Shown here: positions 32,257 through 63,906 of the stretch, in pieces | Position numbering within the stretch: the first letter of the stretch is position 1 | Layout: each line of letters begins with the position of its first letter | Assembly: GCA_028753945.1 (NCBI GenBank) | Contig: JAPNXP010000010.1 | Location: forward strand, 4,467,042-4,531,041 | From: Hexactinellida sp. DTS-2022 | Taxonomy: Eukaryota; Porifera; Hexactinellida | Reading direction: 5' to 3' | Length of the DNA: 64,000 nucleotides | The notes under the pieces: generated by a model | Databases searched by the model: none | What the model saw: only the letters and a program-made list of their open reading frames with translations | What the model was told of the DNA's origin: nothing | Made by a program: the position numbers and the translations under genes

Positions 32257-32384
32257 GTAAGTTTCTTAAGATGTTTCTTAGTTAATAATACATAAACTAG
32301 TTTAATGAATGATATAAAATTATAAAATAAAATAATTATTTGGAAACTATACATATGTGCCCCGTATTTTAGGCAGATATTTAT
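32257..32384 (+). other. 5' end of the 31.65-kb CEP290-like intron (splice donor)
   Basis: The donor is GTAAGT at 32257-32262, a consensus match, after ...ATTG. The intron is phase 1: the leading G joins AA at 63907-63908 to make a glutamate codon. A hAT begins only 129 bp inside. Confidence 0.88.
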
Positions 32385-33358
32385 TAGGGCTGTACCGGAT
32401 TTCCGATTCTAATCCGGTATCCGGCCAGTTACCGGATATCCGGCCAGAACCGGATATGAAAAACTATCCGGCCGGATAACGGTCCCAATTGTATTTGTGC
32501 ATTAATTAAAGAATAACTATCTCTTCGAATACAAAGTGAATTTCCATAGCTCTAGGGTCATTAACTGTCCATTTCTTCTGTCGTTCTAATGTCTGGTACA
32601 GGTTTTCTTGAATAGATATTCTTGGAGTAGAATTTAGATAATGTGTAATAGCAGAACTAGTTGATTGAAAAATACTATGGTCACTTTGTTGTGAATTTCT
32701 ACAAGAGGATTTTCATTTATTATTATTTTTTTGTAAATTTCTGGATGTAAATGTCTTATGTGGTTCCACAGTGGTGACGTGCTATATATTTTAGGATTTT
32801 TACCACGTGATATATGTATTGGCATCACATTCATTACAGAGTGCTCTGAAAGAATCGTTCTTAGATAGTGAGAAAAATGCCAAATTTCACTCATGCTGGG
32901 ATTGATAAAAAATGCAACCTTTCAAGCTAATAGGAAAAAGCGATCACAAAAAATATATAGGAATCGAATATGTTATTGAAAAGATCTTATTTACCAAAGG
33001 TGAATGCGATTGAATGTATGCAGGTAAACCTCCCAAAGCGGCACCTCCGAGTAGCGGCAACCTCCGAGAAGGGGCACAAAATCATTCTGTCTATGGGTGC
33101 CGCTTTGGGAGGTTTACCTGTATTCATATGTACTGTATCAATTGTAGAATCACATAAATTATTTTAGAAGCCTCAAAAAACAAGCTTAGTATATGTACAA
33201 ATTAATCAAGAATAAGCAGAACTTGTTCTTGATGTGATACTATGGTATCATTTGTCAAATACATATTTAGCCGGATATCCGCCTGGATAACCGGATAATT
33301 GAGCACCGGATATCTGGATCCGGCCGGAGTAGAGAATCTCTAATCCGGTACATCTCTA
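32385..33358 (-). mobile_element. Non-autonomous hAT with BED-finger remnant, 974 bp
   Basis: An exact 8-bp duplication ATATTTAT (32377-32384 and 33359-33366) flanks ends TAGGGCTGTACCGGAT and its near complement. Subterminal zones repeat CCGGATATCCGG-type palindromes. A minus-strand frame (32894-32634) contains SPLWNHIRHLHPEI, the second half of a BED zinc finger, and GKNPKIYSTS upstream. It is an internal deletion of an autonomous hAT. A pogo-like MITE is inserted at 33021. Confidence 0.92.
33021..33120. mobile_element. pogo-like MITE, 100 bp, copy 1
   Basis: The arms CAGGTAAACCTCCCAAAGCG and complement pair over about 27 bp. TA follows at 33121-33122; the left flank is TG. It is nearly identical to the copy at 57354-57453. 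Confidence 0.9.
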
Positions 33359-33672
33359 ATATTTATGCCATTAGAATAGTTTTAATCCAATAAAGGAGGT
33401 TTTATCCATATCATAAGTTACTATGCCGTTATGGTTAGTATATCCGAGATTTCGCCACGAAAAATTCGAATCTTTGATATATTGACATTTTTGTAATTCG
33501 CTCGTGTTCTAACTTTGTTCAAATCACAAATGTATTTCATGTATATCTTTATCTTAACAACGCTAATGATTTATCGCTTTATAATATGCATTGATACTAT
33601 AAATAGTATTGTGATAAATTAGTATCAGTTTCCTTCGTTTTAGTATTGAAGGCCGCATAATTTATTAATACA
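33359..33672. other. Unassigned intronic DNA
   Basis: A+T-rich spacer between the hAT and Helitron copy E, with no frames or repeats that I could assign. Confidence 0.4.
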
Positions 33673-34354
33673 CTAGCGCGCTTCGCTGGCTAGGTCTCTT
33701 CGCGGCAGAACTCAACCACATACGCCAACCACTCCGCGGTTAGTATGTGGTTTATATACTTCTAAGTTCTAACATTGATTATAAAGCGTAAATAGTCAAA
33801 TTTAACAATGTGAAATTTTAGTGATTACGTCATCCAGAGGCGTGTTGGGTCCAAGGGGCCCAGGCGGGATTAAGGCCTTACTACTACTCCGAATTTTTTC
33901 GGGGGCCCTACGGGCCCACGGTAAGCAACTTTCCGTGTGGTCCGGGCGAGGGGCCCGGGCGGGATTCCCGCCTGCCATGTATGGCCAGCACGCCCCTGAC
34001 GTCATCATTCGATAATTAGTAAGTATATTGACAATCTGGTGTGACCAACGTGTCCGCATCATTAATGTACACGTTCTATTAAATTTTTAGATTTTTATCT
34101 CTTAGAGGGCGCGAATTATGTGCTATTAAATAAATTTTCAGGATTCTCGAAATGTGACAATGACGTCATTACTTGTCGTGGTGTGAGAAATTTTGAGTGG
34201 AAACCTCAACTTGCTAGCGGGTGCTAAAAGTTACTCCTATAGCCCAAAAATCACATTTGGAAACCGTCCAGTTTCTTCAATCAACTCGGAACATACAAAC
34301 AAATATACACATATACAGTATACATATATACAGGTTTGTGTTTACTAGTATAGA
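33673..34354 (-). mobile_element. Helitron family 1, copy E, with a hAT MITE inside
   Basis: Minus-strand TCTATACTAGTAAACAC starts at 34354 and CTAG ends at 33673, with A before and T after on the plus strand. Without the 164-bp MITE and one duplication it is 510 bp. Confidence 0.92.
33835..33998. mobile_element. hAT MITE, 164 bp, GC-rich
   Basis: An exact 8-bp duplication ACGTCATC (33827-33834 and 33999-34006) flanks ends CAGAGGCGTGTTGG and CCAGCACGCCCCTG. The interior is rich in GGGCCC and GGGATT/AATCCC-type inverted pieces. Confidence 0.94.
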
Positions 34355-34390
34355 TATGTGACATGTAAAAATACAAAAATTGCACAGATT

Positions 34391-34470
34391 TTATGGCGCT
34401 AGGTGGGTCTCGTTTAGATACCAAATATAATCAAGTATAACAGAGCCCACATCAGCTGAGCCATAAAATA
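34391..34470. repeat. Small inverted repeat
   Basis: TTTATGGCGCTAGGTGGGTC and the imperfect complement GAGCCCACATCAGCTGAGCC pair around a short loop. No duplication was seen. Confidence 0.45.
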
Positions 34471-34528
34471 ATCAGATTAGTGATTATAAAGAGTAATTAA
34501 ATTACTGGCCAATAAAAAATGATTAGTA

Positions 34529-35573
34529 TCAAAAACTTAGATTGAAAGAAGTTATAAACTCATTTAGAAGGGCGCTAGTTCTGATGATCAGCCTGATGTC
34601 CACTCCTCCTTGTGCTCGCATTTGATCAACTGCGTGTTTAAAGTGTGAGACATAGGTGTTAACCTCATGTAGCATTTGCTGCAAGACATTTAACTCGGGA
34701 AGTTTGGCCTCGCCTAGATGTCTCTGACGGTTTTCCACTTCAGCATCTGCAGTATCGTCGTGGATGTAAATCTGGGAAAAACTGGTGCTTCATCACTATT
34801 TGGAACAAAAATTCCAATCTAATGGTGCACAATGCCCTGAACACGGAAGGTATATACACCACGTCTAGCATAGCAAGTTCTTTGTTGATATTTGCTCCGA
34901 GGGAACAAAACGCAAGACTTGAGTTATATGTTAGTATGTGGTTCCTGAAGTACTTGCCTCTGCTATGAGCAGCTGTGAGCAGATGGCCTAACCACTCAGG
35001 AAGTTTATCTAAAGAGGGAAGAACAACCTTGCCCTCTCCGAAACAGAGGGAAAAAATGCACATGCTTTCTTAATTGTGGAAAGCTTTTCACTCTCCCAAA
35101 ACTTAGCATCACAAATTGAACAGCTATATGACATACTACCTATTGAATGTTCATCAACCAAACCATCACTAACCTCAGAAGAGATTTGTGATTTAGCAAA
35201 ATTCAGGACCCCTAGATTGCAGAGTCGTAATTACTTGTCTTTTACAACAGAGTCCGGGACTTCAAATGATCCATTCGTTCTTATTCAGACTCACTTTGTC
35301 TGAGCACCTCCTGGTGTTTTCGCTTGTACTCGAAGCGATCAGCTGATTGAGCCTCAGTCTCACTTTTTCTGAGGGCCTCCTGGTGTTTTCGCTTGTACTC
35401 CATGCGATCAGCTGATTGAGCCTCAGTCTCACTTTTTCTGAGGGCCTCCTGGCGTTTGCGCTGGCACTACAAGCGCATAGCAGTCTCTGTGTCAGACTGC
35501 GCCAGTCTCCGAGAGCTTTGCGCTCTCGTTGTTTCTCAAGACGAAGAGCTCTTTGCAGGAGTCTCATTCTCAC
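34529..35573 (-). pseudogene. Helitron Rep/helicase protein, N-terminal part
   Basis: The start MRMRLLQRALRLEKQRERKA leads to two repeated SEKVRLRLNQLIA segments, the charged repeat N-terminus common in Helitron proteins. Later frames give LLTAAHSRGKYFRNHILTYN, SSLAFCSLGANINKE and, after frameshifts, IQGIVHHRIGILVPN, FPRFTSTTI, ENRQRHLGEAKLPELNVLQQ and MLHEVNTYVSHFKHAVDQM. These match the order of the Helitron helicase-like N-terminal domain. The HUH nuclease and helicase domains are missing. The intact protein nicks and replicates Helitron DNA by rolling circle. Confidence 0.82.
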
Positions 35574-35778
35574 GCAATGAGCCTTTCACTCAGCTTCCAT
35601 CATGAAGAGTTTACTATTTATAAAATTATTTTCCGACATTCTTGAACAAAAATTAGTTTGAGCTCTATACAGCTATTTATATAAAGCTCTCTGCATACTT
35701 AATTAGTTAATTCTCATTGGTTAATAATATCTCCTACATGTGTAAAGCTGTTATATAATTAACTAATTAAATTAGAGA

Positions 35779-35937
35779 ATACTTATCCACCGATCATCGG
35801 CGTTTGTATTAAAAAACCTCGCTACTTTCTACCGATGATGTTTTTTACAAACATAAAAAAACAATCGGTAGAAAGTTGCGAGGTTTTTTAATACAAACGC
35901 CGATGATCGGTGCTACCGATGATCGGTGGATAAGTAT
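35779..35937. repeat. Near-perfect hairpin/MITE with CCGATCATCGG motifs
   Basis: Arms of about 65 bp (ACTTATCCACCGATCATCGG onward) are almost perfectly complementary around a short loop. The right arm carries one extra CTACCGATGAT unit. No flanking duplication was found. Confidence 0.8.
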
Positions 35938-36296
35938 CCCATTAAATTAATAGTTTAAGTAGAAAATTCTCATTAGTTAACTACACTATTATTACATACT
36001 AATTTATCGAATTATCTATAATATCATATGTTTAGAAATTTAGAAATTCGAAATTCGTGTTCAGCATACGTGTTTACCTATAATACCCATTGAAAGCTAA
36101 CTTCTAGGTTGATTTTGAATCTTCATTAATTTGTTTACTTATTTTTGTAAACAACAACAACAAATATTCAAATTCTAAATTTATAAATGCGAAATTCGAA
36201 ATCAGCATACTTGTTCACCTAAATATCCGTTGAAAGCTAACTTCTAGGTTGATTTTAAAACAAACACACACACACAACAATCGTGTTTTAATAATA

Positions 36297-36690
36297 CGAG
36301 CCCTTCGGTCTCGGTCGCTTTGCAACGGTTCGGCGCTTCACGCCTCAAATTGACTGCCGCTGCGCGGCCTTACTACGCCTTGAAACTAATCATTTAGAAT
36401 TATACATCTCTGCGGTGTATTAAGTATATTCCTCATAAAGTCCCCTTAATAAGAATGCTATACAATTTAATTTGTCTGGGAAATTCAAATACTCCCAATA
36501 GTAGCTCAATAATTTCAGTTGCACGATAAGGAAGCTCGAATCCAAATAATACTGAAAGAAAAACATGCAATAGAATAGACAAATGATTGATTGGTTAAAT
36601 GAATTTATTTTCAATCAATCAAATTGCAGACTCAATCTTTCTATTATGCACAGGCTATTTATACTAATTGAATAAGTTAACTAATCTATC
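36297..36690 (-). mobile_element. Helitron family 2 fragments, minus strand
   Basis: The 3' end CGAGCCCTTCGGTCTCGGTC (minus CTCG end) at 36297 directly abuts the 5' end of the neighbouring Helitron. The body to 36690 is the reverse complement of unit interior 36950-37130 (TTCAGTTGCACGATAAG, AATCAATCAAATTG). Confidence 0.7.
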
Positions 36691-36708
36691 TATCTATCTA
36701 TCTATCTA

Positions 36709-38399
36709 TCTATATATAAAAAGAGGAATTGTTGTGTGTTTGTTTGTTTGTTTGTTTGTGTGTTTGTCCAGAATTGATTGGAAAGACTACGAGTCCCAGA
36801 AAGCTGAAAATTAGTATACAGGGGTAATTTTGTACTGCGACAACGATCTATTGGTTTTTGAAGAGAAATATTCACATTTGAAGTTGTCAAAATTTGTTAG
36901 CCAATTAAATTCGAGGGTTTGTTAGTATGGATTATCAGATTTAATCAATCAGTATAAATAGATTGTGCATAATAGAAATATTTCTGAGCCTCCAATTTGA
37001 TTGATTGAAAATAAATTCATTTAACCAATCAATCATTTGTCTATTCCATTGCCTGTTTTTCTTTTAGTATTATTTTGATTCTAGCTTTCGTATCGTGCAA
37101 CTGAAATTTATTGAGCTATTAAAACTCATTATTAATGTGATTGCTTTTGGGGAGGGAAAGGCCGCGAAGCGGCCGTTAATTGTATTGCGTAGTGCCTAAC
37201 ACGAACGAACAAAAGTCGCAAAGCGACTTTTGTGAGAGAGTGATCCGTCGCGAAGCGACCGAGACCGAAGGGCTCGTGTATAAAAAGAGGAATTGTTGTT
37301 TGTTTGTTTGTGTGGGTGTTTGTCCAGAATTAATTGGAAAGACTACCAGTCCCAGAAAGCTGAAAATTTGTATATAGGGGTAATTTTGTACTGCGACAAC
37401 GATCTATTGGTTTTTGAAGAGAAATATTCACATTTTAAGGTGACAAAATTTGTTAGCCAATTAAATTCGAGGCTTTATTAGTATGGATTAGCAGATTTCT
37501 TCAATTAGTATAAATAGATTGTGCATAATAGAAATATTTTCTGAGGCTCCAATTTGATTGATTGAAAATTAATTCATTTAACCAATCAATAAATTGTCTA
37601 TTCTATTGCCTGTTTTTCTTTTAGTAATATTTTGATTCGAGCTTTCTTATCGTGCAACTGAAATTTATTGAGCTATTTACCTCATATTAATGTGATTGCT
37701 TTTGGGGAGGGAAACGCCGCGAAGCGGCCGATAATTGTATCGCGTAGTGCCTAACACGAACGAACAAAAGTCGCGAAGCGACTTTTGTGAGAGAGTGATC
37801 CGTCGCGAAGCGACCGAGACCGAAGGGCTCGTAAATAAAAAGAGGAATTGTTGTGTGTTTGTGTGTTTGTGTGTTTGTTTGTTTGTTTGTCCAGAATTAA
37901 TTGGAAAGATTAAGAGTCCCAGAAAGCTGAAAATTTGTATACAGGGGTAATTTTGTATTGCGACAACGATCTATTGGTTTTTGAAGAGAAATATTCACAT
38001 TTGAAGGTGACAAAATATGTCAGCCAATTAAATTCGAGGGTTTGTTAGTATGGATTAGCAGATTTCATCAATTAGTATAAATAGATTGTGCATAATAGAA
38101 ATATTTTCTGAGGCTGCAATTTGATTGATTGAAAATAAATTCATTTAACCAATCAATCATTAGTCTATTCTATTGCCTGTTTTTCTTTTAGTATTATTTT
38201 GATTCGAGCTTTCTTATCGTGCAACTGAAATTTATTGAGCTATTAAAGCTCATTATTAATGTGATTGCTTTGGGGAGGGAAAGGCCGCGAAGCGGCCGTT
38301 AATTGTATCGCGTAGTGCCTAACACAAACGAACAAAAGTCGCGAAGCGACTTTTGTGAGAGAGTGATCCGTCGCGAAGCGACCGAGACCGAAGGGCTCG
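36709..38399 (+). mobile_element. Three head-to-tail Helitron family 2 units
   Basis: Units are 36709-37276, 37277-37831 and 37832-38399 (568, 555 and 568 bp). Each begins (TC/T)..ATAAAAAGAGGAATTGTTG, has a TTTG-rich stretch, TTTGTCCAGAATTRATTGG, and ends in stems GGCCGCGAAGCGGCC and GTCGCGAAGCGAC and then CCGAAGGGCTCG. Only the first starts with the full TC after an ATCT microsatellite. Later ones start immediately after the preceding CTCG. No coding sequence. Confidence 0.9.
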
Positions 38400-38754
38400 T
38401 ACTATCAAACCCTCGAATTTTTAATTGACTAACATATTTTGTCACCTTTAAATGTGAATATTTCTCTTCAAAAACCAATAGATCGTTGTCTCAGTACAAA
38501 ATTACCCCTGTATACAAATTTTCAGCTTTCTGAGACTCGTATTCTTTCCAATTAATTCTGGACAAACAAACAAACAAACAAACAAACAAACAAACAAACA
38601 AACAAACAAACAAACAAACAAACAAACAAACAAACAAACAAACAAACAAACAAACAAACAAGCAAGCAAACAAATAAACAAACAAACAAACATACAAACA
38701 AACAAACAAACAAACAAACAAACAAACACACAACAATTGCCTTTTTAATATATA
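38400..38754 (-). mobile_element. Helitron family 2 5' part with long CAAA microsatellite
   Basis: The minus-strand 5' half-unit has its TTTG stretch expanded to about 40 CAAA repeats (38564-38727). It ends where CGAGGGTTTG meets the inverted array. The long Val-Cys-Leu-Phe frames here are microsatellite translation, not a gene. Confidence 0.85.
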
Positions 38755-41466: not shown

Positions 41467-41504
41467 ATTCTGACAAACACATACACACACACATGTACAC
41501 ACAC

Positions 41505-43559: not shown

Positions 43560-44130
43560 TAATAATGAGAACTGAGGTGAGCACCATTCTTAGAAGAAAT
43601 TCATGACAACTCAGGTCATCAATGCATTCAATACACTTATAACATTGCAAAAGATTGGACTACTATTGATCCAGTATGCCCAAGGATTTCGAGCTCTATG
43701 TACAAGCCTGTGTCCGTTGCAGTGTTTTTTTTTAGGATTTGCTTAGAGGGCTCAGCCAACAATAACAGGCCCTCACCCCCAACAATTAGAGGCCCTCACT
43801 CTACATTTCATGATATTCAGCACTTAGCACGTTAAAAATTAGAGGCCCATTGAGAAAAATTAGAAGCCCATTTTGGGCCTCTAATTTTCCTTAAAAAAAC
43901 ACTGGTCCGTTGTATCATAAATCAACTCAGTATGCAAAGTCTTACGTTTCCTCAATAACTTCTTCCAGTCATCACCAAAGTTTGAACCGCGTTGGTATGG
44001 ATCTGACTGGGCCTCTGATAGAATCGATTCGCTACAAGTAGATATTAACCGTTATCGATCATTTACAAGATGGATTGAGACCCGCCCTCTTCGTACGAAA
44101 AAAGCAATAGAAATACCCTGAGGTTTATTT
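43560..44130 (+). pseudogene. Integrase remnant (gypsy/Ginger type) split by a hAT MITE
   Basis: Before the MITE, frames give EEIHDNSGHQCIQYTYNIAK and PKDFELYVQACVRC, the zinc-binding H-x-H/C-x2-C region. After it comes the RNase H-like core start: NRVGMDLTGPLIESIRYK, then ILTVIDHFTRWIETRPLRTK. The first catalytic aspartate is in GMDLTGPL. Removing the MITE and one duplication restores the reading CVRCIINQ across the junction. The rest of the core and C-terminus are missing. No LTRs were seen, so retrotransposon and Ginger-type DNA transposon origins remain open. Confidence 0.75.
43720..43904. mobile_element. hAT MITE, 185 bp
   Basis: An exact 8-bp duplication GTCCGTTG (43712-43719 and 43905-43912) flanks ends CAGTGTTTTTTTTTAGGA and TCCTTAAAAAAACACTG. 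GGGCCTCTAATTTT motifs are inside. It splits the zinc-binding cysteine codons of the integrase remnant. Confidence 0.95.
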
Positions 44131-47552: not shown

Positions 47553-47750
47553 CAGGGTTTTTTTTTTAAGTTGAGACCTTGATGTAACTCAGCGCGGCCT
47601 TGGTGTAACTCACCTCTGCAGCGGCCGCGCCGAACCATAATCGTGGTGTAACTCAACACTGCACAGGCCCAGGCCAACCCGAAACGTGGTTTAACTCCAA
47701 AGAATCTTGGTGCAAAATTTACACCAAGATCGGCCTTAAAAAAAACCCTG
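47553..47750. mobile_element. hAT MITE, 198 bp
   Basis: An exact 8-bp duplication TACTATGT (47545-47552 and 47751-47758) flanks ends CAGGGTTTTTTTTTTAAG and CTTAAAAAAAACCCTG. TTGGTGTAACTCA recurs inside. Confidence 0.95.
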
Positions 47751-48114: not shown

Positions 48115-49255
48115 TTGGAGAGAGATGCCCAGATCACGGAAGCGGATTTCGTTGTGGAAGAAAAGCCTAAGAAAATACGAAGAGTTCATCATCCGAATAG
48201 CCTTAGCAAAGTACTTAAGTCTAGAAAACGGAATGATGATTATTTAGCTTTTGGATTTTACCTTCCATATGATCAGATGAAATGCTCTGAACCAGAAGCA
48301 GAATGCCTCATTTGTGGTGAACGGTTGTGCAACTCCTCTCTTGCACCGGCGAAACTAAAACGGCATCTGGAAAACCACAAATAATATCAAACTAAAACAA
48401 AAGGATATTTGAAAGGATGCGTGAACTCACCTGTAAACAGAAATCCTCCTTTAATCAAACAATGAAAGGTATTGGTGGAGAGACTGTCCTATTGCGAGCA
48501 TCATATCGAATCGCTGAAGTCTTGTGTAAACAAAGGTGACCATTTACTGAAGGAGAAGATGTCATCAAACCAAGTCATATTATTCCTGCTGAAGAACTCC
48601 ACAATGAGAAAGCTGTTAAAAGAATGAAGGAACTCCCTTTGTCCAATGACACGATGTTACGGCGAGCGATAGATATAAATTTCGACCTACAAGATCAACT
48701 TTCCAAAAACTGCGAGATACGTGCTGGTTTGGGTTACAGCTTGATAAATCAACTGACGTCAGTAGTCGAGCACAGCTTTTAGCTTACGTTCGTTACCCTT
48801 ATCTGGAGGCAGAAAATATCAGGGAGGAATATCTTTGCTGTTTGGATGTTGGAGTGACCACTACAGGCGAATCAATCTTCATGAAGTTTGATGAATTTAT
48901 TAAACAAAACCGAATTCCATGGGAAAAATGTTCCGGGATTACTACAGATGGTGCGGCAGCAATGGCGGGAAAAATATCTGGTGTAATTACAAGAATACGA
49001 GCGATTGCTCCTCACTGTGTATCTAAGCACTGTATAATCCATCGTGAGGCACTTGCAGTGAAGCGGTTTAAAACCGGATCTGTTACAAAAGGAGAACTTG
49101 AGATTGTACTGGAAGATGTGATACACACGGTCAATTATATCAGAGCTGGTGGAAAAGGGAAAAAAATTCGGATGTTCCAGAAATTGTGTGAAGAAATGGG
49201 AGCGAGTACGAATCACTCTTACTTCATTCTGAGGTACGATGGCTCTCAAGAGGAA
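48115..49255 (+). pseudogene. Buster hAT transposase 2 with BED finger (ZBED5-like)
   Basis: A BED zinc finger, CLICGERLCNSSLAPAKLKR followed by HLENH, lies at about 48307-48381. Then across a frameshift come LLRASYRIAEVLCKQ, IIPAEELHNEKAVKRMKELP, LSNDTMLRRAIDINFDLQDQ, and from 48842 LDVGVTTTGESIFMKFDEFI, EKCSGITTDGAAAMAGK and HCIIHREALAVKRF. The order and motifs are those of Buster hAT transposases. The aspartate in TTDGAAAM is the second acidic catalytic residue. The region between DQL and LDVG, holding the first, is frame-broken. The C-terminal dimerisation domain is lost. Confidence 0.88.
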
Positions 49256-49261
49256 AAGCTT

Positions 49262-49620
49262 TATAATTATATAGGAAGTTAGGAACATGATATCAAGGCA
49301 TACATAACACCCTTTAGAATTGTGATATATCACCATTTGTTCACGTAATCGCTATTTTTCGTGGGAAATATCGTGTTTTTATAGCCTGCTTTTAACATAG
49401 TTAAACGCGTTATAAATATTCAAAATTGGAACATCAGGATGTCCATAACTAGTTGAATGAAATATATCGAAATTATAAATGGAATGTTGACACATTCCTC
49501 GGTTGCCATGGAAATGCATATTTCTTAAAATGAGCCATAACTCAAAAACTTTCTATTTTATGTAAACTATGCTAGTACTGATCTATCCGCAATTGGTAAC
49601 TTCCTATCATCCTATTCAAA
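49262..49620 (+). repeat. Dispersed repeat family R3, copy 3
   Basis: It starts ATTATATAGGAAGTTAGGAA and runs to GGTAACTTCCTA. It is nearly identical to parts of 3935-4420 and 44490-45010. Its insertion or recombination removed the end of hAT 2. Confidence 0.75.
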
Positions 49621-51480: not shown

Positions 51481-51797
51481 AACCTGTCTCTTCAGGTATC
51501 TGCCAAACTTATATCCGAATACTAAGCTATGGGGTGAGATATGTCGGTACATAGTTTATAATAGGAAGGATACCATTTTGGTGTACTTAAAGGCAAGTAC
51601 TATCAACTACTCAATCTTATTACAAAAGTAACAGTTTCATGTACCAATGTGGGTTTGGGTTACTGATGCTGAATAGATGGCGGGATTAGCTCTACTCAAG
51701 ACAGACATCTATGCTGCGAATGTTTTAAACAAACCCATTGCATTATATTACTAGGCAATGGCAGTCACTATATTTTAGGACCAGGGGTTGGTTAGTA
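51481..51797. other. Unassigned
   Basis: Possible extension of the P fragment on the minus strand, but frames are too broken to follow. Confidence 0.35.
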
Positions 51798-51837
51798 CAG
51801 TAGAACCTCGTTAGTACGAACACCACGGACGGTTAAT

Positions 51838-52060
51838 ATATCCAAAATTGCAGCCTGTGCTGACCCATTTCCATTTGGAGGCACTACATTTGGTGATTGG
51901 GTATCTAGTATTGCCTCCAAAGGGAAATACTTTCGGCACAGGCTGCAATTTTGAATTTTTTCGCCATGTCATGAACGCCTCAAGGTGTTTACACCCATGA
52001 CCCATTTATCAGGTTGTTACTGTACAAGGAACGTTTGATAATTTCATGCTTCTTTCTATC
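51838..52060 (+). repeat. Hairpin-headed dispersed repeat family, copy 3
   Basis: Arms AATTGCAGCCTGTGCTGAC and GGCACAGGCTGCAATT flank a short body with CACCCATGACCC. The middle of the element is deleted relative to copies 1 and 2. Confidence 0.7.
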
Positions 52061-52069
52061 TTAAACCAT

Positions 52070-52689
52070 CTTGAGTTTAAGTTTATATTTCCATTATAAA
52101 TGCGTTTAGACCCCCCCTATCACTCTAATACAATTCGGGCACCAAACAAACACACAAACGAATAGTCATAAACTAGAAATTCCATCTCAATAATCCATTG
52201 TTTATATATCAGTTATCGTTTTGAAATTGAAATCAGCATACTTGTTTACTTAGAATGAAATATGGGATTAAGTTTAGATTATACATGCGTTATAAACCCC
52301 CTTATCACTCTAATACATTTCGGGCACCATACAAACCAACAGACGAATATTCACACATTAGATATTCCACTTCATTAATCCATTAATTGGATATCAGAAA
52401 TCGATTTGAAATTCGAAAGTGTTGAGTGAAATTGAATTTGAATATACTAGAAAACTTATATGTAACTAAGTAATAGATATCGATTTATATAGTAGCAGCT
52501 ATTAATTCAAATTGAATTATTCATATACAATAGAATACTTGATTGTAACTATGATATCAGAAATAGATTTATACAGTAATATATATTGATAATTGAATTA
52601 TTCATATAAAGTAGAATTATTTATTGTAACTATGATATCAGCAATAAACTTGAAGAGTAATAACAATGAATCTAATTGAATTATTCATA
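52070..52689. other. Unassigned tandem-like A+T-rich DNA
   Basis: Two diverged copies of a block with TATCACTCTAATACA and GGGCACCA (52108-52150 and 52300-52335) suggest Helitron 2b leader remnants. TTGAATTATTCATAT is repeated at 52510-52690. Confidence 0.4.
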
Positions 52690-52757
52690 TGTTTGTCCGG
52701 CTTGTATTAATGTGATATGAGAATAGAAACCGCACTTATAAATGAGATAGAGCATGA

Positions 52758-53672
52758 CCTACTTAATACACGGCCGTGTATGTCACCGAGAAGGCCAAAA
52801 AAATAGAAGGCCAGTTTATAAATTTCATTCTAGGATAAATTATGCCTCTTATTGTTATTATTTGGGTTGTATATGGGGTAATCAACCATTGCGAGTCAAA
52901 TGGAACCACTTTTGAGAATCTCAGATTTGTGGTTAAGCTGTTTAGGCGCCATTTAATGATGATACAACAAATATACAAATATACAATTCGGGTCTAAAGA
53001 ACTACGAGAAAATGAAGATAATTTGCTAATATTCTTAGTATACATTTTCAGAATATATAATGTGTATGAATATATATAAACCAGCAATTATATACGTTTT
53101 ATGGACGAAAATAGTAATTTGTAACTCGGATCTACTTGTATTTTAGCATGTGGTTGCTTTATAATTTTTTAAAATTTTAGAATGTCGCCATTTTGTGACT
53201 TAGTAGCCTTTGGGGTATGAAATATATTCCTTTTTAGTATTCCTGTTATAATATTATTAGAAAGTAGGAAGAAAATGATATTTGAATTTTTTTCATTTTA
53301 CCATAGATTGTTACCGTCACCAGGAAATGGCGCCTAAACAGCTTAACCACAAATCTGAGATTCTCAAAAGTGGTTCCTTTGGACTCGCAATGGTTGATTA
53401 CCCCATATACATAGGCGTCGTAAATGCAAAGGTCAATCCTTCGGGCCGCCCAGAAATTCCGGGTAAACTCCGGGTAAACTTCGGGTATAGTATTAGTAGC
53501 ATAAGGGCAACCCTTACGGGCCGCCCAGACTTTTCCGGGAACAAGGCCTATGCCCATATACAAACCAAATAATAACAATAAGAGGCATAATTTATCCTAG
53601 AATAAATTTATAAACTGGCCTTCTATTTTTTTTGGCCTTCTCGGTGACATACACGGCCGTATATTAAGTAGG
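52758..53672. mobile_element. Foldback element with ~215-bp inverted arms
   Basis: The left arm (CCTACTTAATACACGGCCGT to GGCGCCATTTAATG, 52758-52962) and right arm (53323-53672) are nearly identical inverted copies, with an A+T-rich centre. The right arm is split by an insertion at 53411-53553. No clear flanking duplication. Type unknown; the long arms suggest a MULE-like or foldback element. Confidence 0.8.
53411..53553. mobile_element. hAT-like insertion, 143 bp
   Basis: An exact 8-bp duplication CCATATAC (53403-53410 and 53554-53561) brackets it, confirmed by the uninterrupted left arm of the foldback. The ends share only ATAGGC/GCCTAT. GGGCCGCCCAGA appears twice. Confidence 0.85.
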
Positions 53673-54118
53673 CCAACGTTAGAGGCTAGCTTCCAAATCG
53701 TCATATAGGTAAACAAGTATGCTGATTCCGAATTTCGCATTAAGAAATTCTAATATCAATAATTATTGTTGTTGTTTTTAATATAGTAACAAATTACTGA
53801 AAATTCAAAATGAACCCAGAGACTGGCTTCCAGTTGGTGTAATTGGTGAACGAGTGAGTGTGCTGATTCCGATTCTCGCATTAAAAAAATCAACATGTAT
53901 AATTTATTGTTGTTGTTGACAAAATATGTAAACAAATCGGTGAAATTCAAAATTATGGAGTCATATAATGATTGGTTTAGGGAGGGGTAAGGCCGCGTAA
54001 CGACCGTTAAATTGATGTGTGTAGCACCGATCCGTCGCAAAGCTAGCGAGACCGAAGGGCTCGTGTTTACGAATAAGGAAATATGCATCTTTATTTAGTC
54101 TGAAATTCAATACGCTTG

Positions 54119-54534
54119 CAGAGCCGAGGCACGGGATTAGAATCTGTCTGGCAAGGGAGTTTCAGAGCGAGCGTAGCGAGTGATTAATTTGGTGATCTGG
54201 GGGCTTCTCCCCTGAATTCTTTTTAACTTAATACTTCTTAAATTCTCAGGACAATTTTTAGAATTTGGATTAATTATTAATATTAGTAAATAAGACCCTA
54301 GTTCATTTAGTCGAAAATTCAAAGAATTAGGTCACGTTGGTATGGTAATTGCTTCATTGCGCGGGACAAAGAAACTATATAGTAATACTCAAACTATGGC
54401 ACATAAAGTAGGTACATCGAGTTTGAACATTTTTTATCAAAAAAGAAATCTACACACCGGAGGGTCCCAAGCGCGGGCCCCAAAGCGTGGGGCCCCCGGC
54501 ATATGCCGCATCTACCGTTGGTAAATCCGGGCCT
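54119..54534. mobile_element. Possible hAT with CAGAGCCGAGG and CCGGGCCTG ends
   Basis: The left CAGAGCCGAGGCACGGG and right AAATCCGGGCCTG resemble the ends of the hAT at 39865-41466, with GGGGCCCCC near the right end. No matching 8-bp flank was seen. Confidence 0.4.
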
Positions 54535-54914
54535 GCTGGGGAGGCGATACGGAGAAACATCCAAGGCAGTCATTTCAATACTGGGCCACTATACTATACT
54601 ATAGTCTCCTCAGTAAAAATTTCGCTTTTTCCGGAGTTTGTATTAACCGGAGTAATTCCCATTTAATAGCCATTGTAGAGACCTAATTTTGTGGAACTGT
54701 TTGTTTGTCGTTTCCGGAATTTCGTATTAACCGTGTTCGTACTAACTAGGTTCTACTGTATATTCAAATTTACATTCCTTTATTACTTTATATATAATTA
54801 ATTAAGCATTTTAGGTGACTTCCACTCACAAATATGGCACCCTCTATATATTACATTACTTTGTTTCTGTCTTTATACAAGTCTTACCCGAGACGAAACA
54901 GTATAAAAATTATC

Positions 54915-56750
54915 ATTCAGCCGTGGACTACGAAATAATAAGGGCGGAGTATTGAAATGAAAAAACGGACCATGGATATGTTAGAAGTGCAATATTAAAA
55001 TGGATGATTTCCTCAATGAATCAATTATCTTGTTATATAAAAAATTGTATTTAAGTTCTATCATAATTACAGTCCTAATTGGAATTTATTATCAACAATA
55101 TCAATCAAAAGCTTTGATGATTGCAATTGTAGACACAATACATAATAAGGTAATAAAACTGAGGAGAAGTACATAATGTTTGTAAAAATTGAGTTATTAA
55201 TTCATTAATCTTTAAACTTTTTGAGTTTGCGAGAGTGGATATTTTTTTGTTCTCGTAGAGCGGAATTGACATTGCGTACTTTATTGGCCAAAATAACGTT
55301 CGCTGTGATTGTAGTTATCTTTCGGAGGATAGTCCACCCTTGCACATTGCAAAAACTACATGTATTTCTCCAGTTTATGCTCTGGCTTTCTTCGATTAAA
55401 ATATTGTCAGCTGAATTAGGATTTGTCTAGAGGGCCCTGTTAAAAATCGTCGCATTAAGGTTTCGTCATTTTCGATTGTAATATAGATCTTTAACACAAT
55501 AATAATGGCATCTATAACAATATGAGATGGCCATTTGAGAGCACCTCGGTCAATAAGTTGAATTAGTTTATAAGTATCTTCCGTACCAACGATTTCGAGT
55601 TCTTTATCCTGTGTAATCAATGACATACAAGTATCACACTTGACAGATTGCTTCAAATATGAGTGTACAGCATATCCACCGACAAAGGCAACTGATTGAA
55701 GAAGTGAACTATCAAAAGTAATGGTCGAAAAGGATTGCAATGCTATGAGGTATGTATCTAGGTTTAAAGCATAATTGGAAGGTTCGTTAGATGAGGAGGA
55801 ACAGGAATCGATCATATCCTTTAAACTGACGTAATCTGATTGTTCCTTTTTCGAGAATATTTTGAGGATGCTTGATAGCTTGATCCGTCGTTCACTTTCA
55901 ATTATTTGAGAATAACTAACATGATAATGTGCACCAGACATCATACGATACAAACCAAAATGATGTTCGATTGGGTCATTTTGTAATCGTGATGTGAGCA
56001 CGTAATCAAATCCACAATTTGAGTGAGATGTTTTACTATTTCAATCAGGGCAAGGCACGAGTGAGACAAGCTTATGAAGGTTTGGGGACTCAATTTACCG
56101 TGTTTATTTTCACGAGATCGCCATCGTGCAAGCCAATTAACAATGAGCCGTAGAAAAATAAAACGATAATCATCATACGTAAGAGGTTTGGAAAATTCAT
56201 CATTAAGTCTGATATGCTTATGTGTTGTATTGACATTGAAGATTTTCCAAACTTTTATAATACTGTCAAGAAACTCGATTGTTTGGGTTTCGGAATTTGT
56301 TCGTGCGGAGTTGTAAATAGATAATGCATCGAGTGTTGATGTGTCGAAGATCTTTAAAGCTAGGCTGACATTTTGCCGCTCTAAACTTGTGGGCCAGCAA
56401 GCTTTAGCTGTTAAACGATGACCCTGTTTGATGATTAAACTCTGCTCGTTTTTGTAAAGCATTCGAATATCTTGAAATTTCGCAATACGTTTATGTTGGC
56501 TATTTTCATAGTTCGGAAAAATAAGTGTGTTTGGATAAGAAAATGTATGATCATAATCTTTCAAATTGATCCAGTTGTTTCGTATTGATTTTACAATCTG
56601 AAGGAAATCGAAATAAGAAGATTTTTCTTTCTGGATCAATGGGATGAATAGCAGTAGGCTCCTCACCATTTCTGCCATGGAAAATGGTAGAAAGGGACGA
56701 TATATACATTCCTTTATAGGATTTCCATAGTTTTAACTTGTTTCTCATAT
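54915..56750 (-). mobile_element. P element 3, 5'-truncated
   Basis: GGACCATGGATATGTTAG at 54985-55002 corresponds to GGACCAGGGATGTGTTAG inside the end of P element 2, placing this 3' end near 54915. The minus-strand transposase runs from 56748 to 55396. There is no THAP part. The protein sequence is clearly diverged from P elements 1 and 2. Confidence 0.7.
55396..56748 (-). pseudogene. P element 3 transposase, C-terminal two-thirds
   Basis: It begins within the catalytic domain (SYKGMYISSLSTIFHG), continues FDFLQIVKSIRNNWINLKDY, CWPTSLERQNVSLALKIFD, EFLDSIIKVWKIFNVNT and, after a frameshift near 55970, NDPIEHHFGLYRMMSGAHYH and GGYAVHSYLKQSVKCDTC. Two frame changes are visible (near 56600 and 55970). 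The C-terminal region from EHHFGLYR onward is the longest uninterrupted one in the window (201 codons). Cys-x2-Cys and the YLK motif are shared with P element 2, supporting a conserved C-terminal domain. Confidence 0.88.
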
Positions 56751-58076: not shown

Positions 58077-58408
58077 TTTGTAATTAAAAGCGGAATTGTG
58101 GTCTGTGTGTGTGTCCCCCCCATGTCGATGTCACTAGATCGTAAAATACTGTCCCTATATCATATGATACGAGGACAAAACTTTAGCATATAAGGACACT
58201 TATTTGGATATAAGGACAATCATTGGGTGTGTGTGTGTGTGTGTGTGTGTGTTCATGTCGATGTCGATATAAAGACAAAACTGTCCCTATATCTCCCCAT
58301 TTAGGGACAAAAACCTTTGGATATAAGGACACTTTTAGGATATAGGGACACTTTTTGGATATAAGGACAAAAACGTCCCTGTATCACTGATATAAGGACA
58401 TAATCTGG

Positions 58409-58472
<64 letters not shown>

Positions 58473-59206
58473 GAGGATGTCCTCATATCGCAAAAACTTG
58501 TCCTCGTATCTATAGATGTGAGGACAAAAACTTGGATATGAGGACAAAAATTTGGATATGAGGACAAAAACCGGATATGAGGACATTTACCTGCGTGTGT
58601 GTGTGTGTGTGTGTGTGTGTTTGTCCAGAATTGATTGGAAAGACTACGAGTCCCAGAAAGCTGAAAATTTGTATCTTAGGGTAATTTTGTACTGCGAAAC
58701 GATCTATTGGTTTTTTAAACAAAATAACGGGGTTATGACGTCATAGAGGCACTTATTTGGGAATAACTCTTTCAGTTCTTATCCGATTCACCCACAATTT
58801 TAGACCGATTTATGGGTTTATGACGTCACGTGGGAATTACTTATTATTATTATTGCTTTAAATCCACTGTACATATTCACATATTAAATTCACTGCACAT
58901 ATTGGTTTGGTGATTACCTGCTGACTCCACCTGCATGATTTCAGTTTAGTTAGTTCTATTAATGATTTAATAATAGCATACATTAATGCATAAGTTTAGA
59001 TATTTAGATATGCATAAGTGTTCATATAAATTCCTATTTGAACTAGATAAATCTTTTCTCTATTCTGTTTTCTACCTCACGGTGGGTAAGGCCGCGAAGC
59101 TGCCGTTATTTGTATTACGTAGAGTCTACCACGAACGAACAAAGGTCGCGAAGCGGCCTTTGTCAGAGAGTGAGCCGTCGCGAAGCGACCGAAACCGAAG
59201 GGCTCG
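58077..59206 (+). mobile_element. Helitron family 2, plus strand, GT- and GGACA-expanded leader
   Basis: The 5' TTAAAAGCGGAATTGTGG is followed by alternating GT microsatellites (58228-58252, 58409-58468, 58594-58620) and irregular GGATATAAGGACA repeats. TTTGTCCAGAATTGATTGG then starts the usual body, and the 3' stems with CTCG close at 59206. Confidence 0.8.
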
Positions 59207-59480
59207 TATATTAAAAGCGGAATTGTTGTTTGGATGTTTGTCCGTAATTAATTGAAAAACCATACTATCCAGAGAGCTGAAATTTGGTATATAGGTGTGA
59301 TTTGTCATAGCAACATGGATCTATTGGTTTTCTAATCGAAATATTGTGAATATGACATCACACGGTAACCTTTTCCTTAATAACTTTTGCAAATTTGACT
59401 CGATTAGTATAAAATTTATATATAAATATACAACGCATAATGGTGCACGTTTGAGAAAATTATCACTTATTGAACATATA
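59207..59480 (+). mobile_element. Helitron family 2, second head-to-tail 5' part
   Basis: TATATTAAAAGCGGAATTG follows directly on the previous CTCG, then TTTGTCCGTAATTAATTG and a diverged body. No 3' end. Confidence 0.7.
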
Positions 59481-59484
59481 TTTT

Positions 59485-60300
59485 CAGAAAGTTATTAGTT
59501 AAAACGTGTCCTATTATTTTTAACACTATGTGGGTGATCTGATTTGTTTTGTTAACAAGAATGCACTAGAGTAGTTGCTTCTCTTATGCATTGCTTATTT
59601 ATTACACTTATATTGGCTCCTATTAAATTCGGATTACTTGGGGTCAAAGGTATAAATAGAAAAAAACCATTTTCATTTTCATTTTCAGTCGAAATTCAAT
59701 TAACTTTCAGTTTAATTTCACATTAAATGAATGAAAGACTTTATTTTGAGGGGAAAGCCTAATCACATGAAGTGATCTTCCTTAGGGTCCTCTTTTCTAC
59801 AGCAAATTCAATATACATAACTAAGACAAAAACATACATAAAATACATTTAAACAAGATCTAATTAATATCTAACAGAGAAAAGTGTTTAATGTTTTGTA
59901 GAGCGTTGAGTTCCAATTTGGTAGTACAAGAAATGTTCAGAAATATAGAAAGAGTAGAGGAAGTAAAATGACAAAATAAGATAAAATAAAATAATAATAG
60001 CTCAAAAATACGGAAGGTTCTAAGACTCAAGAAATCTAATTGGATAGAAAATACTGGAATAAGAGCTTTTTAAAGGTTGCGACTGAGTTAACTTGTTTAA
60101 TAGAAGTAGGTAGGGAATTAAAATGCTCTGCAGCATCATAGGCAAAAGACCTTTTGAATTCTGTCTAATGATGAGTTTTATTTTGTTCATTATTGCTATC
60201 AATTAAATTAATTAATTCACTAACCCAAGATTCAGCTCCTGCAAAATTTATGGTTTATAGTGAGATGTATAATGTTTGTTCTACGTACTATCAATTAAAT
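59485..60300 (+). repeat. Dispersed repeat family R5, copy 2, split by a LINE
   Basis: It matches 5800-6250 on both sides of 59640-60165. The interior also has promoter-like copy 3 (TATAAATAG at 59651). Confidence 0.6.
59725..60175 (-). pseudogene. LINE (non-LTR retrotransposon) 3' end
   Basis: Minus-strand translation gives EFKRSFAYDAAEHFNSLPTS then IKQVNSVATFKKLLFQYFLS and a stop. This is the standard C-terminus of L2/CR1-type reverse transcriptase proteins (R.FAY.A..WN.LP..I.....FK..L). A 3' UTR follows, with AGGAAGATCACTTCATGTGA and the tail AATAAAGTCTTTCATTCATT near 59725. Only the last 45 codons or so survive, as usual for 5'-truncated LINE copies. Confidence 0.85.
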
Positions 60301-60311
60301 CAAATATTCTG

Positions 60312-60420
60312 CAACCCTGGATTTACCTCTGCATAATAATGGTTTAATGTTGAGAATAAGACTGAGAAGCGGTTTTATTCTCACCTTTAAACTATTATTA
60401 TGCAGAGATTAAATCCAGAA
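60312..60420. repeat. Hairpin, CTGGATTTA..CTCTGCATAATAAT arms
   Basis: CTGGATTTACCTCTGCATAA and its complement pair over about 45 bp around AAGCGG. The arms also resemble Helitron 2 long-form sequence (TGCAGTAAATCCTGG), suggesting an inverted duplication of it. Confidence 0.6.
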
Positions 60421-60689
60421 TTAATAATTTACTTTGCAATACAATTTACTGAAATAATTAATTGCGTATAATTTACCAAACACATGTTTCAATTTATTTG
60501 AGCTAACAAGCTAACCTTTAATATAGCTGACGAGCTATCCTTATGAATTATTAATAATTATTAAGCTATTAATTAACTAATAATTAATAGGTATTGAGTA
60601 ATGAGAATAACTTACATAACATAATTTCCCAAACAATTACAGTAACTAATCTCAACCCAAAAAGAATTTAGGCGCGTTATTAGGTAATA
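60421..60689. other. Unassigned
   Basis: TTAATTATTAAT-rich DNA without features. Confidence 0.4.
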
Positions 60690-60835
60690 GTGATAATTCA
60701 CTAGCCACAGGTGAACTCATTATTAATGTTATTGCTTTTTGGCAGGGTAAGGCCGCGAAGCGGCCGTTTATTGTATCGCGTACTACCTAACAAGAACGAA
60801 CAAAAGTCGCGAAGCGACCGAGACCGAACGGCTCG
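60690..60835 (+). mobile_element. Helitron family 2, 3' fragment
   Basis: It shares CACTAGCCACAGGTGAACTC with 18905-19073. GGCCGCGAAGCGGCC and GTCGCGAAGCGAC stems and a CTCG end at 60835 are present. Confidence 0.75.
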
Positions 60836-60926
60836 TATAGTATAAATGCAGTTACTATTCCCCATCATTTTAATACAATCCGGACAGACACACAAACAAA
60901 CAACAATCGAGATTTAATAATACAGA
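60836..60926 (-). mobile_element. Helitron 2b 5' end fragment, inverted
   Basis: Minus TCTGTATTATTAAATCTCG starts at 60926 and the GT-rich and leader sequence runs to 60840, meeting the previous 3' end tail-first. Confidence 0.7.
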
Positions 60927-61774
60927 TGTTGTTGTGAAGAAACTTGAGAGATTTAGTGATAACACAAACGCAGTTATTTTCTCGCAGTAATGTTTTATTG
61001 AGAATGAATACTGGGGAAAGGAGAATATACGTCTCTTGCAGGTGGCTATGCCAAGAGGTACAAATGAGAGGAATCTCCATTCATGATCCGCCTAGACAAG
61101 CGGTGTCCCAAGGAAAAGAGACGATAAATGATTTCCAAGCTGTGATTTCGGAACTCCCTCTGCAAATCTGGCATCTTGCACGTTAAGGATTATGATCCCA
61201 GAGCATGCGAAGCTTGCAGCTCTACTGCGCGTAATTCCAATGGGACATTTTCAGTCCCCCATTCGGAACCGTCTTAATTAATTATTAATCATTATAATAT
61301 CGATGCGTAGATCCGCATTAGTATAGGAAATGGAAACATGTTCAGAAGGTATTGGAAAATTGGTTAGGTAATAAACCCATAAAGATCTAATTGACGCGGA
61401 TCAGTAGATACTACTGTATTATGATTTATGACATTATTTTTGTATCACTTATTCAACACAAGAATTTTCTTACTAATTTTCTAAATTATTTGCACTATAA
61501 TGATAATATGATTCAATAAACATTTGTAGCATATCATACATTCGCTGCTAAGTAGCAGGAATATATGTGAGTATATAGTTGGATAACTTTCACAATTATT
61601 GTATAGTGGTATAGCGAGATTTGAATTACCCCCCTTGAATTGGATTTCGGTAACCCCCCCCCCCCCCCCCCCCCCTCAAGTCAAAGTCTAGATCAATAAG
61701 ATCATAGGTAGCCTTTTCCGAGTAATCCCTTTCTTCACACCGCACATTCATCTAATAACAAATATTTCTATACA
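60927..61774. other. Unassigned; one unknown 80-codon frame and a poly-C block
   Basis: A frame at 60944-61186 (with IHDPPRQAVSQGKETINDFQ) has non-repetitive composition but no family I recognise. At 61628-61680, CCCCCTTGAATTGGATTTCGG leads into a run of about 22 C, like 1183-1260. Confidence 0.4.
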
Positions 61775-62310
61775 TCTATACTATTAAAACACAAACCTCT
61801 ATGTATGTGTACGGTATATATATACTAGCGCGCGTCGATTGCTAGGTCGCTTCGCGGCAGAGCACAACCACATAGTGGCACAAACCAACCGCTTCGCGGT
61901 TATTGTGTGGTTTATATACTGTGGTTTATATACTTCTAACGTTGATTATAAAGAGTAAATAGGCCTAAAATAGTCAAATTTAACCATGTGAAATTTAATT
62001 ATTACGTCATGTGATATTGAGTAAGCATATATACACACATACACATAGGTTTGTGTTTTAATAGTATAGATATAAAGATATTTGTTTGTATGTTCCGAGT
62101 TGATTGAAGAAACTGAACGGTTTTCAAATATGATTTAAGGCATATAGGGGTAACTTTTGGCCCCCGCCAACAAGGTGAGGTTTCCACTCAAAATGTATCA
62201 CACCTCATCGAGTTATGACGTCATTGTCACATTTAGAGAAGCATGAAAATTCACTTAATCGCACATAATTCCTGTCCTCTAAGTCTAAGACATAAAATCT
62301 GAAATTTAGC
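61775..62310 (+). mobile_element. Helitron family 1, copy G, invaded by its own family
   Basis: TCTATACTATTAAAACAC starts at 61775 after A. The body resumes at 62071 and is truncated near 62310 without a CTAG end. The interruption is an opposite-strand copy of the same family. Confidence 0.85.
61825..62070 (-). mobile_element. Helitron family 1, copy H, internally deleted, nested
   Basis: Minus TCTATACTATTAAAACAC starts at 62070 and CTAG ends at 61825, inserted between A and T in a TATATATA stretch of copy G. At 246 bp it has lost half the body but kept both ends. Confidence 0.9.
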
Positions 62311-62439
62311 AATTGGCCTTTTGTGACCACCTAAATATTTGAGGAAACCAATGTGGCCCGAAATTAAAATCGATTTGGGTACGTCAGATGTTGGTCAACT
62401 ACATATAGCTATCCTTATTAAAAATTTTTACTGCATTTA
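62311..62439. other. Unassigned
   Basis: Short spacer with no features. Confidence 0.4.
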
Positions 62440-62613
62440 GAACTTGATTGTTTGTAGTAGTATTTGTAAAGTATTTAAATACTTTCGGAAAGTATTTGGA
62501 AGTATTTAAATACTTTGTAATTATTTCCAAAGTAATTGTATTGTATTTAAATACATTTTGAAAAGTATTTGTATTGTATTTAAATACATTTGAATTTATT
62601 TGACCCCAAGCCT
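62440..62613. repeat. GTATTTAAATAC-repeat, probable hAT MITE right half
   Basis: The palindrome GTATTTAAATAC or a variant recurs about four times, ending GACCCCAAGCCTG. The C..AAGCCTG end is hAT-like. No left end was found, and it abuts the hairpin repeat. Confidence 0.55.
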
Positions 62614-63140
62614 GGCTTTCGGCACAGCTGCAATTTTGGATTATTTTTTTCCGCCATCTCATCATCACTATGAAGGTGTTAAATTATTTCAGAAAGGTGT
62701 TTCAAAAGGCAACGACCCTTAGAGTGGTGGAAGTTTCCATTTAGCTCACTTCATTTGAGAGATATTCAAGTTTCAGTAGAATATAATCTGTGATGACTCT
62801 GCATTTTTTAAGTGCGTGTTGGGTATTCACCCAACTCCAACCAACCCATGCGAATTATGTAATTCAAAAAATTGTAGAAACACATTTTTTTGACCATGTC
62901 ATCATCACCCACCCACTTGAAGGACCAATTAATAAATTGAAATTTGTTTCTGGCTTATATCATCCCTGAGATTAATAAAATTTAGCTAATTAGTATAAAT
63001 ATTTAATTAATTTATTAATTATTTAACACCATTATTATGTACAGCAAAATAAATTAAGTTCAATTATTTGCAATAATTATTAATCTATATTGAATTTCAT
63101 TATAATATTTGAATTCAGCGCACTCGATAACCCCAATAAT
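62614..63140 (+). repeat. Hairpin-headed dispersed repeat family, copy 4, 5'-truncated
   Basis: It begins within the right arm of the head hairpin (TCGGCACAGCTGCAATTTTG), so the first 100 bases are missing. The rest follows copy 1, including AACGACCCTTAGAGTGGTGG. Confidence 0.75.
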
Positions 63141-63906
63141 CTAATTGGAACCGTCTCTATAAGTTAAACACAGAGCGAATTAATTTGAATTTATACGTAT
63201 GTCATGTCACTCATGTGTCCATTGTGCAAGCATATTCCCGTTGAAGTAAATTTAATCACATAATCTGTCGTTGTTATGAAATGTAAAATGTTAGTTTTCA
63301 AATAGAAAATAGAAGCCTACTCGATCTCACAAGTTGAATCAATATAATAATCACAAGTTGAAACAATAGAATTAGATTTAACATTTTCAATTGAACTGAA
63401 ATGTTAGTAAACAATGGAAATTTGCAACTCAATTGTGGCACAAATGAAGCGGAATTTTAAAATTCATGCACTGTGACAAGGTGTGGAAATAAATTATCTA
63501 TCGAATGCATATAAATTGAATAATTGCGCACTATTTATTGTTCCTTTTCTAACATTAAACAGGTGTAAAATGTGTCCAAAAAAATGTGATAAAAAATCGT
63601 GACCCCAGGTGCACATCTGTAACCCTGTCCTGAAAATTTGGGTTCTTAGTTAATAGAACTCTATTCTGTGGATGAGCTACGAATAACTAACTAACCAAAG
63701 CACTAAGACTGGGCCACTATACTATACTATAGTGGCACAGTAATTATTATAATGATACAATTATGTATATATTTACCTATCACGTCAACCGTAAGTAGTT
63801 AACTCTATTTTTACCGATATTGTATGAATTTGTATCTGTATAGTTTACTGGCCTGTTTTACAAAACCTAATCCATCTAATTTGATACATTATGTCACGTT
63901 CCCTAG
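63141..63906 (+). other. 3' end of the giant intron, with splice acceptor
   Basis: No mapped element. CTGGGCCACTATACTATACT (63709-63728) also occurs at 54580-54599. The intron ends GTCACGTTCCCTAG at 63906, with a short pyrimidine tract. Confidence 0.75.

Follow-up and report, generated by a model that had tools for sequence, protein, structure and literature searches.

A 31,650-base transposon-filled intron in a glass sponge CEP290 gene

Two segments of a CEP290-like coiled-coil protein that follow each other directly in the protein lie 31.65 kb apart in a stretch of glass sponge DNA, which raises the question of what separates them and how it came to be so large. The stretch of 64,000 bases analysed here, referred to as the window, is C2:4467042-4531041 of an assembly of 112,398,167 bases in 18 contigs (G000). 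Window coordinates are used throughout; negative positions are upstream of base 1 (0 being counted) and positions above 64000 are downstream. No N was present anywhere in the window or in the surrounding 344 kb of joined sequence, and the GC content over 284 kb around the window was 35%. The host can be assigned to the glass sponges (class Hexactinellida) by its nearest protein relatives, at class level only and from one protein: a kinesin contained in one frame of this genome showed 71% identity over the full length to that of Oopsacas minuta, six further contig-derived proteins matched it at 60-88%, and the next named animal reached 45% over 53% of the length. A search of the assembly for COX1 gave no match.

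The junction of exons A and B

The two segments, here called exon A and exon B, and the sequence between them are arranged as follows.

31621..32256, + strand: CEP290 exon A, 636 bases, phase 1 at both ends, with AG at 31619-31620
32257..32262, + strand: donor GTAAGT, directly after exon A
32257..63906, + strand: GT-AG intron of phase 1, 31,650 bases, full of transposon copies
63901..63906, + strand: acceptor CCCTAG, directly before exon B
63907..64000 in the window and on to 64226, + strand: CEP290 exon B, 320 bases, with donor GTATCA (hidden Markov model E 9.5e-12)

The preliminary description of this DNA had proposed that the donor GTAAGT and the acceptor CCCTAG join the two segments in phase 1 into an uninterrupted reading, and this was borne out. 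At the join, G/GTAAGT...CCCTAG/A, exon A ends one base into a codon and the joined frame is open (EKYQGKLQDAR...), while an exon starting at 63907 has stops in both alternative frames. When aligned with eight CEP290-type proteins, the 32256/63907 join was without a gap against all of them. With the donor at 32257, the acceptor ending at 63906 and no N in the window, the distance of 31.65 kb between the adjacent segments also stands, and the presence of a 31,650-base intron between exons A and B was confirmed. Its GT...AG ends, matching phase and continuous frame are those of a spliceosomal intron, whose removal from RNA is predicted.

When exons A and B were used as the query, four proteins were found: three frames corresponded to exon A, with identities of 88, 73 and 64%, and one to exon B, with 85%. 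The closest exon A protein (88%) and the exon B protein were separate frames from contigs both 519,220 long, which we took as one contig. In all three relatives the exon A frame continues across the same donor (TIGK or TIGR, followed by residues that diverge), and the exon B frame of relative P0171 begins MSRSLEKYQ, as read through the acceptor of the window. Such shared read-through of donor and acceptor indicates that the intron predates the split from these relatives.

Identity of the gene

Exon A matched the Pfam family CEP209_CC5 (PF16574) with an E value of 4.4e-6 and 27.3 bits, above the cut-off of 25, and the exon A locus was the sole match when the genome was searched with this family. 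In tblastn the exon A region was matched by all 46 CEP290-type queries, and no match to CEP290 was found on the minus strand up to E 1. A PDB search with exon A gave nothing at E 0.1.

The flanking DNA contained further coiled-coil exons on the same strand as exon A. Eight exons, from -94534 to a stop at 77517, joined in frame to give 1,372 residues, and in an alignment with eight homologues six of the seven exon junctions were gapless at the join. The junction before 31621 was one residue short compared with seven of the eight proteins and three short compared with the eighth; as the direct join does not lack thirteen residues, a 40-nt exon proposed earlier as a candidate is not needed. A nine-exon query of 1,504 residues matched 47 proteins (best E 1.8e-113) in a homologue search with a length window of about 830-2,630 amino acids. 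Of these matches 41 were named CEP290, four were nameless and two were a hypothetical or unnamed protein (one from a frog, one from a fluke).

A profile of 13 CEP290-type proteins was also run against 12,356 open frames from the 344 kb. Its 13 top matches came from 12 frames, every one of them on the + strand; they followed the order of the protein without exception and covered model positions 448-2452, the part of the protein over which colinear similarity was found. The weakest two (E 0.024 and 2.6) were accepted because their position, splice sites and phase fitted, whereas the next matches, at E 11 or weaker and on both strands, were at chance level. The Pfam domain, the homologues and the twelve colinear exons on one strand identify the gene as CEP290. 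The earlier suggestion of a CEP290-like gene was therefore upheld, the best hits being CEP290 and no other coiled-coil family.

CEP290 has an established role at the ciliary transition zone, where the sponge protein would by analogy serve as well. Like its vertebrate counterpart, the sponge protein is colinear, with about 26-28% identity and at least 90% query cover in many hits; unlike it, the sponge sequence is divergent, and the likeness is read at the protein level.

Transposon content of the introns

At least 15,501 of the 31,650 intron bases (49%) were copied elsewhere in the 284 kb, many at 80-95% identity, and tandem arrays made up about 2.3 of the 31.65 kb (summed rows). The following elements were recognised in the 31,650-base intron and, in the last line, in the preceding one; MITE stands for miniature inverted-repeat transposable element.

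36713..38401, unstranded: repeat in tandem copies, about 93-95% alike
43720..43904, unstranded: putative hAT-like MITE with CAGTG ends and the 8-base duplication GTCCGTTG
47553..47750, unstranded: putative hAT-like MITE nested in another repeat, with the 8-base duplication TACTATGT and an empty site elsewhere
48650..49282, + strand: possible hAT-like transposase remnant (DUF4371, E 0.008, 16.5 bits, below the cut-off of 32.1; weak)
51796..54760, unstranded: DNA transposon with 28-base inverted ends (96%) and TA at both edges
52755-53675, unstranded: inner inverted-repeat element of the 51796-54760 transposon, no clear duplication seen
55941..56732, - strand: P-element-like transposase remnant (TNP-like_GBD, E 1.4e-4, 22.7 bits, just below the cut-off of 24.8)
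23307..25192, - strand, preceding intron: P-element-like transposon pieces (THAP, E 2.9e-15, and TNP-like_RNaseH_N, E 2e-13, both above the cut-off)

We take both MITEs to be hAT-like, in the case of 43720-43904 from its end sequence and duplication length. The hAT label of the 48650-49282 remnant is likewise our assumption, and the 51796-54760 element is presumably pogo/Tc1-like, judging from its ends.

Nesting was directly visible for the second MITE. At C2:2993182-2993509 the flanking repeat occurs with no MITE in it, its two matching halves sharing exactly 8 bases, which indicates that the MITE at 47553-47750 jumped into another repeat. Inverted-repeat pairs with duplications of at least 8 bases gave four rows in the intron compared to none in each of 20 first-order randomised sequences, but two of the four (37944 and 52778) were palindrome-like and unconvincing. 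With duplications of at least 6 bases, seven were observed in the intron, compared to one in a single sequence of the 20. The layered transposons with readable duplications that had been noticed at first were thus recovered as 49% repeats, two MITEs with 8-base duplications and nesting with an empty site.

Pfam was run on 29 open frames (E limits 1, 0.01 and 0.05); 18 had no family, and several of the remaining 11 had only matches below the cut-off. Scans of the window for Rfam families (gathering threshold) and for tRNA gave zero matches. In the preceding intron, a domain of the OTU-like cysteine protease type was seen on the minus strand at 11006-11485 (E 2.8e-5, just above the cut-off), which may be a nested gene or transposon cargo.

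Extent of the locus and its other introns

The CEP290 locus as found runs from -207493 to 77517, that is 285 kb, with about 5.4 kb coding, the N-terminus excluded. The gene extends far past both ends of the window, and the 31.65-kb intron is not its largest. Nine frame-consistent introns, of 3.8-49.5 kb, were found; besides the one between exons A and B they are given here in order, together with the exon preceding exon A.

Between -180988 and -170959, + strand: intron of 10,030 bases; 27 model positions between the flanking matches are unaccounted for
-170718 to -147725, + strand: intron of 22,994 bases
+ strand, between protein-adjacent exons: introns of 36,371, 22,225 and 17,202 bases, in this order, frame-consistent
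-18068..-17849, + strand: the CEP290 exon preceding exon A
-17848 to 31620, + strand: intron before exon A, 49,469 bases, which also holds transposons; 1..31620 is its 3' part
+ strand, after the 31,650-base intron: introns of 7,207 and then 3,807 bases, frame-consistent

The suspicion, voiced when the previous exon could not be seen in the window, that the intron upstream of exon A may be huge as well was correct. An unfound exon probably lies in each of two further intervals, one of 25.8 kb from -207117 to -181299, the other of 52.8 kb from -147331 to -94535.

Two observations were made on transposons elsewhere in the locus. At -181350 to -181299 an inverted end like that of the 51796-54760 element, with TA, stopped 21 bases short of a CEP290 exon; a transposon thus reaches to where the branch point and pyrimidine tract would lie. 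The 7.2-kb intron that follows exon B contained at 66392-69994 an element of gypsy type, whose single open frame of 1,201 amino acids encodes protease, reverse transcriptase, RNase H and integrase domains.

Intron sizes elsewhere in the genome

As a control, exons of kinesin motors, protein kinases and dynein heavy chains were compiled by hand. Matches lying whole in one frame, isolated matches, and duplicates that overlapped or were riddled with stops were left out. This gave 67 neighbouring exon pairs, of which five separated by under 30 bases were set aside as non-introns. The remaining 62 control introns had a median of 298 bases; four were at least 10 kb long (maximum 13.4 kb) and none reached 17 kb. 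Among the seven CEP290 introns compared, five were at least 17 kb long (one-sided rank test, p 1.9e-5, in which introns of the same gene are not independent).

Six dynein heavy chains were contained in single open frames of 3,993-5,038 amino acids (C1, C2, C4 with two, C8 and C11), indicating that a large gene for a cilium or motor protein need not have giant introns. In these dyneins extreme intron loss is seen beside the extreme intron growth of CEP290. At C10:2307727-2333598, weak dynein heavy chain matches followed the order of the profile, with two intervening gaps of about 12 and 13 kb, two of the underlying matches being below the cut-off (E 1.3e-4 and 0.0017); from these matches, the locus is perhaps a second giant-intron gene.

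Chromosomal setting and probable origin of the large introns

With a probability of roughly 0.86, we read the 31,650-base stretch as an ordinary spliceosomal intron of a single-copy glass sponge CEP290, enlarged by repeated, nested transposon insertion, the whole gene being affected in a transposon-rich block. The chromosomal position of the gene bears on this reading. For the three gene families of the control, 171 marker positions were compiled by hand together with those of P-element-like (P-like) transposons, the best 150 of 928 P-like and the best 150 of 885 gypsy candidates being scored. Markers lay at a median of 794 kb from the closest P-like hit, against 333 kb expected, a value as extreme being obtained in 0 of 500 random placements. 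On C2 all nine scored P-like hits lay between 2.51 and 5.15 Mb, and the markers occupied the intervals 0.16-2.65 and 5.81-6.31 Mb. CEP290, at about 4.26-4.54 Mb, therefore sits in a P-element-like-rich block free of the marker genes used.

The P-like density was 4 per Mb near CEP290, compared to a genome mean of 1.33 per Mb and an average of 0.37 at 27 positions where the genes have shorter introns. Introns of at least 10 kb also occurred in three other genes, two kinesins and the weakly matched dynein, and these had 2, 1 and 3 P-like hits per Mb. Most sampled genes were found in compact parts of the chromosomes, with short introns or none. A block of about 12 Mb was also seen on C11 (0.8-12.97 Mb, about four fifths of the contig), with 19 P-element-like hits and no scored kinase, kinesin or dynein markers.

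Several points weigh against this reading. Because some of the markers are clustered, the outcome of the random-placement test is inflated, and only the best-scoring candidates of both transposon kinds were counted. One of the four P-like hits near CEP290 lies inside the gene itself, and a kinesin on C17 with a 10-kb intron fell below the genome mean, at 1 P-like hit per Mb. Gypsy integrases were not concentrated in the block: five of the eight on C2 lay at 2.65-6.07 Mb, which is 54% of the contig, and the idea that all transposons are enriched in the block was weakened by this distribution. As to the gene, the profile search of the 344 kb left CEP290 model positions 1-447, 554-638 and 942-1048 without a match, and genome-wide searches with two orthologues (19 of 50 and 19 of 33 candidates scored) did not find the N-terminal exons.

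On balance, a working single-copy gene engulfed by a transposon-rich block appears to be the best reading of these sequences. The locus measures at least 285 kb, probably because the gene sits in a transposon-rich block with few conserved genes. Transposons would build up where their removal is inefficient or the harm they do is small. The insertions would have hit pre-existing introns, the donor of exon A being common to the relatives, and would have stayed and become targets of later insertions. The introns of a gene trapped in such a block may thus grow while selection keeps the exons, and the block is the probable cause of the growth. RNA polymerase II presumably transcribes the gene over its full length, and the introns would be spliced out normally.

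Alternative explanations

An assembly artefact, in which the exons are truly closer and transposon sequence was misplaced between them, seems very unlikely. It would be favoured by introns filled with repeats, many at 80-95% identity, but the sequence contains no N in 344 kb, the exon chain keeps the correct order and phase, and insertions with clean duplications are present. A relative, in the pair of contigs both 519,220 long, has exons A and B as separate frames too, and the error would need to recur in many introns.

The gene might instead be a pseudogene breaking up in the transposon block, as the very large introns, the dense P-like transposons around it and the failure to find the N-terminal 447 model positions and two internal stretches would suggest. 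However, the exons found have no stop or frameshift between their splice sites and are joined by nine frame-consistent GT-AG introns, exon A has 88% protein identity to a relative in which the exon is open, and no second copy that could replace it was found in two whole-genome searches (19 of 50 and 19 of 33 candidates scored). We therefore regard a dead gene as highly improbable.

Least probable is trans-splicing of separate transcripts, which would avoid transcription of 285 kb in one piece: the locus is extreme and the glass sponge Aphrocallistes vastus is reported to use spliced-leader trans-splicing (PMC10282587), but leader addition differs from exon-to-exon trans-splicing, and the junctions have ordinary GT-AG sites with matching phases.

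Significance and comparison with known systems

A conserved cilium gene, present in single copy, with introns of 4-50 kb set against a control median of about 0.3 kb makes a clean contrast for asking whether gene function or chromosomal place drives intron growth. The data favour place over function, because six dyneins are in single frames, whereas the one with only a weak match lies in a transposon block and apparently contains two introns, of about 12 and 13 kb. The locus is also a natural test for the reading and splicing of enormous genes. Among the 47 proteins of about 830-2,630 amino acids no full-length close relative of this CEP290 was present, and the close relatives found were single-exon pieces. 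This is a warning that annotation can miss genes of such shape, and reported gene losses in glass sponges therefore deserve a six-frame check. For the Wnt domain, a six-frame genome search found no match, in agreement with the loss reported for O. minuta; this result is weak, since the control genomes were empty too.

The phenomenon of giant introns is known, and the present case is new, in animals noted for compact genes; a limited literature search found no publication on giant introns in glass sponge CEP290. The published glass sponges O. minuta and A. vastus belong to the same animal class by the kinesin match and, like this genome, have many single-exon genes. They differ in intron size: the published values are an average intron of 341 bp with 1.59 introns per gene for O. 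minuta (PMC10280926) and an average of 516 bp per intron on the compared scaffold for A. vastus (PMC10282587), against 3.8-49.5 kb in this CEP290.

The gigantic genes of the Drosophila Y chromosome (kl-3 and kl-5), described under the term 'intron gigantism', share with this CEP290 that a motility gene has a tiny coding share and introns built of repeats. In kl-3, introns reach megabases of satellite DNA and make up over 99% of the locus (PMC6508621). The sponge introns are of 4-50 kb and mainly of interspersed repeats. The largest fully bounded one has 49,469 bases and so falls short of a megabase, and in the 31.65-kb intron interspersed repeats make up at least 49% and tandem arrays about 2.3 kb, so satellite DNA is not the main component. 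A far-reaching extension would be a division of glass sponge genomes into two kinds of block, compact ones with single-exon genes and transposon-laden ones that hold a few conserved giant-intron genes, several of them cilium or motor genes. These few genes would need a special expression programme (slow transcription of the whole locus or joining of transcripts) and would be a sponge counterpart of the fly Y-loop genes. We consider this extension improbable.

For the heterochromatic genes of Drosophila, the named hallmark is large introns packed with degenerate transposons (PMC8909793). The CEP290 gene of this sponge likewise lies in a block rich in transposons and poor in genes, with large introns made up of degenerate transposons; gypsy hits are not enriched in the block. 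Although a fly is compared here with a glass sponge, and the likeness is one of sequence, the transposon-packed large introns make the Drosophila heterochromatic genes the closest match in kind.

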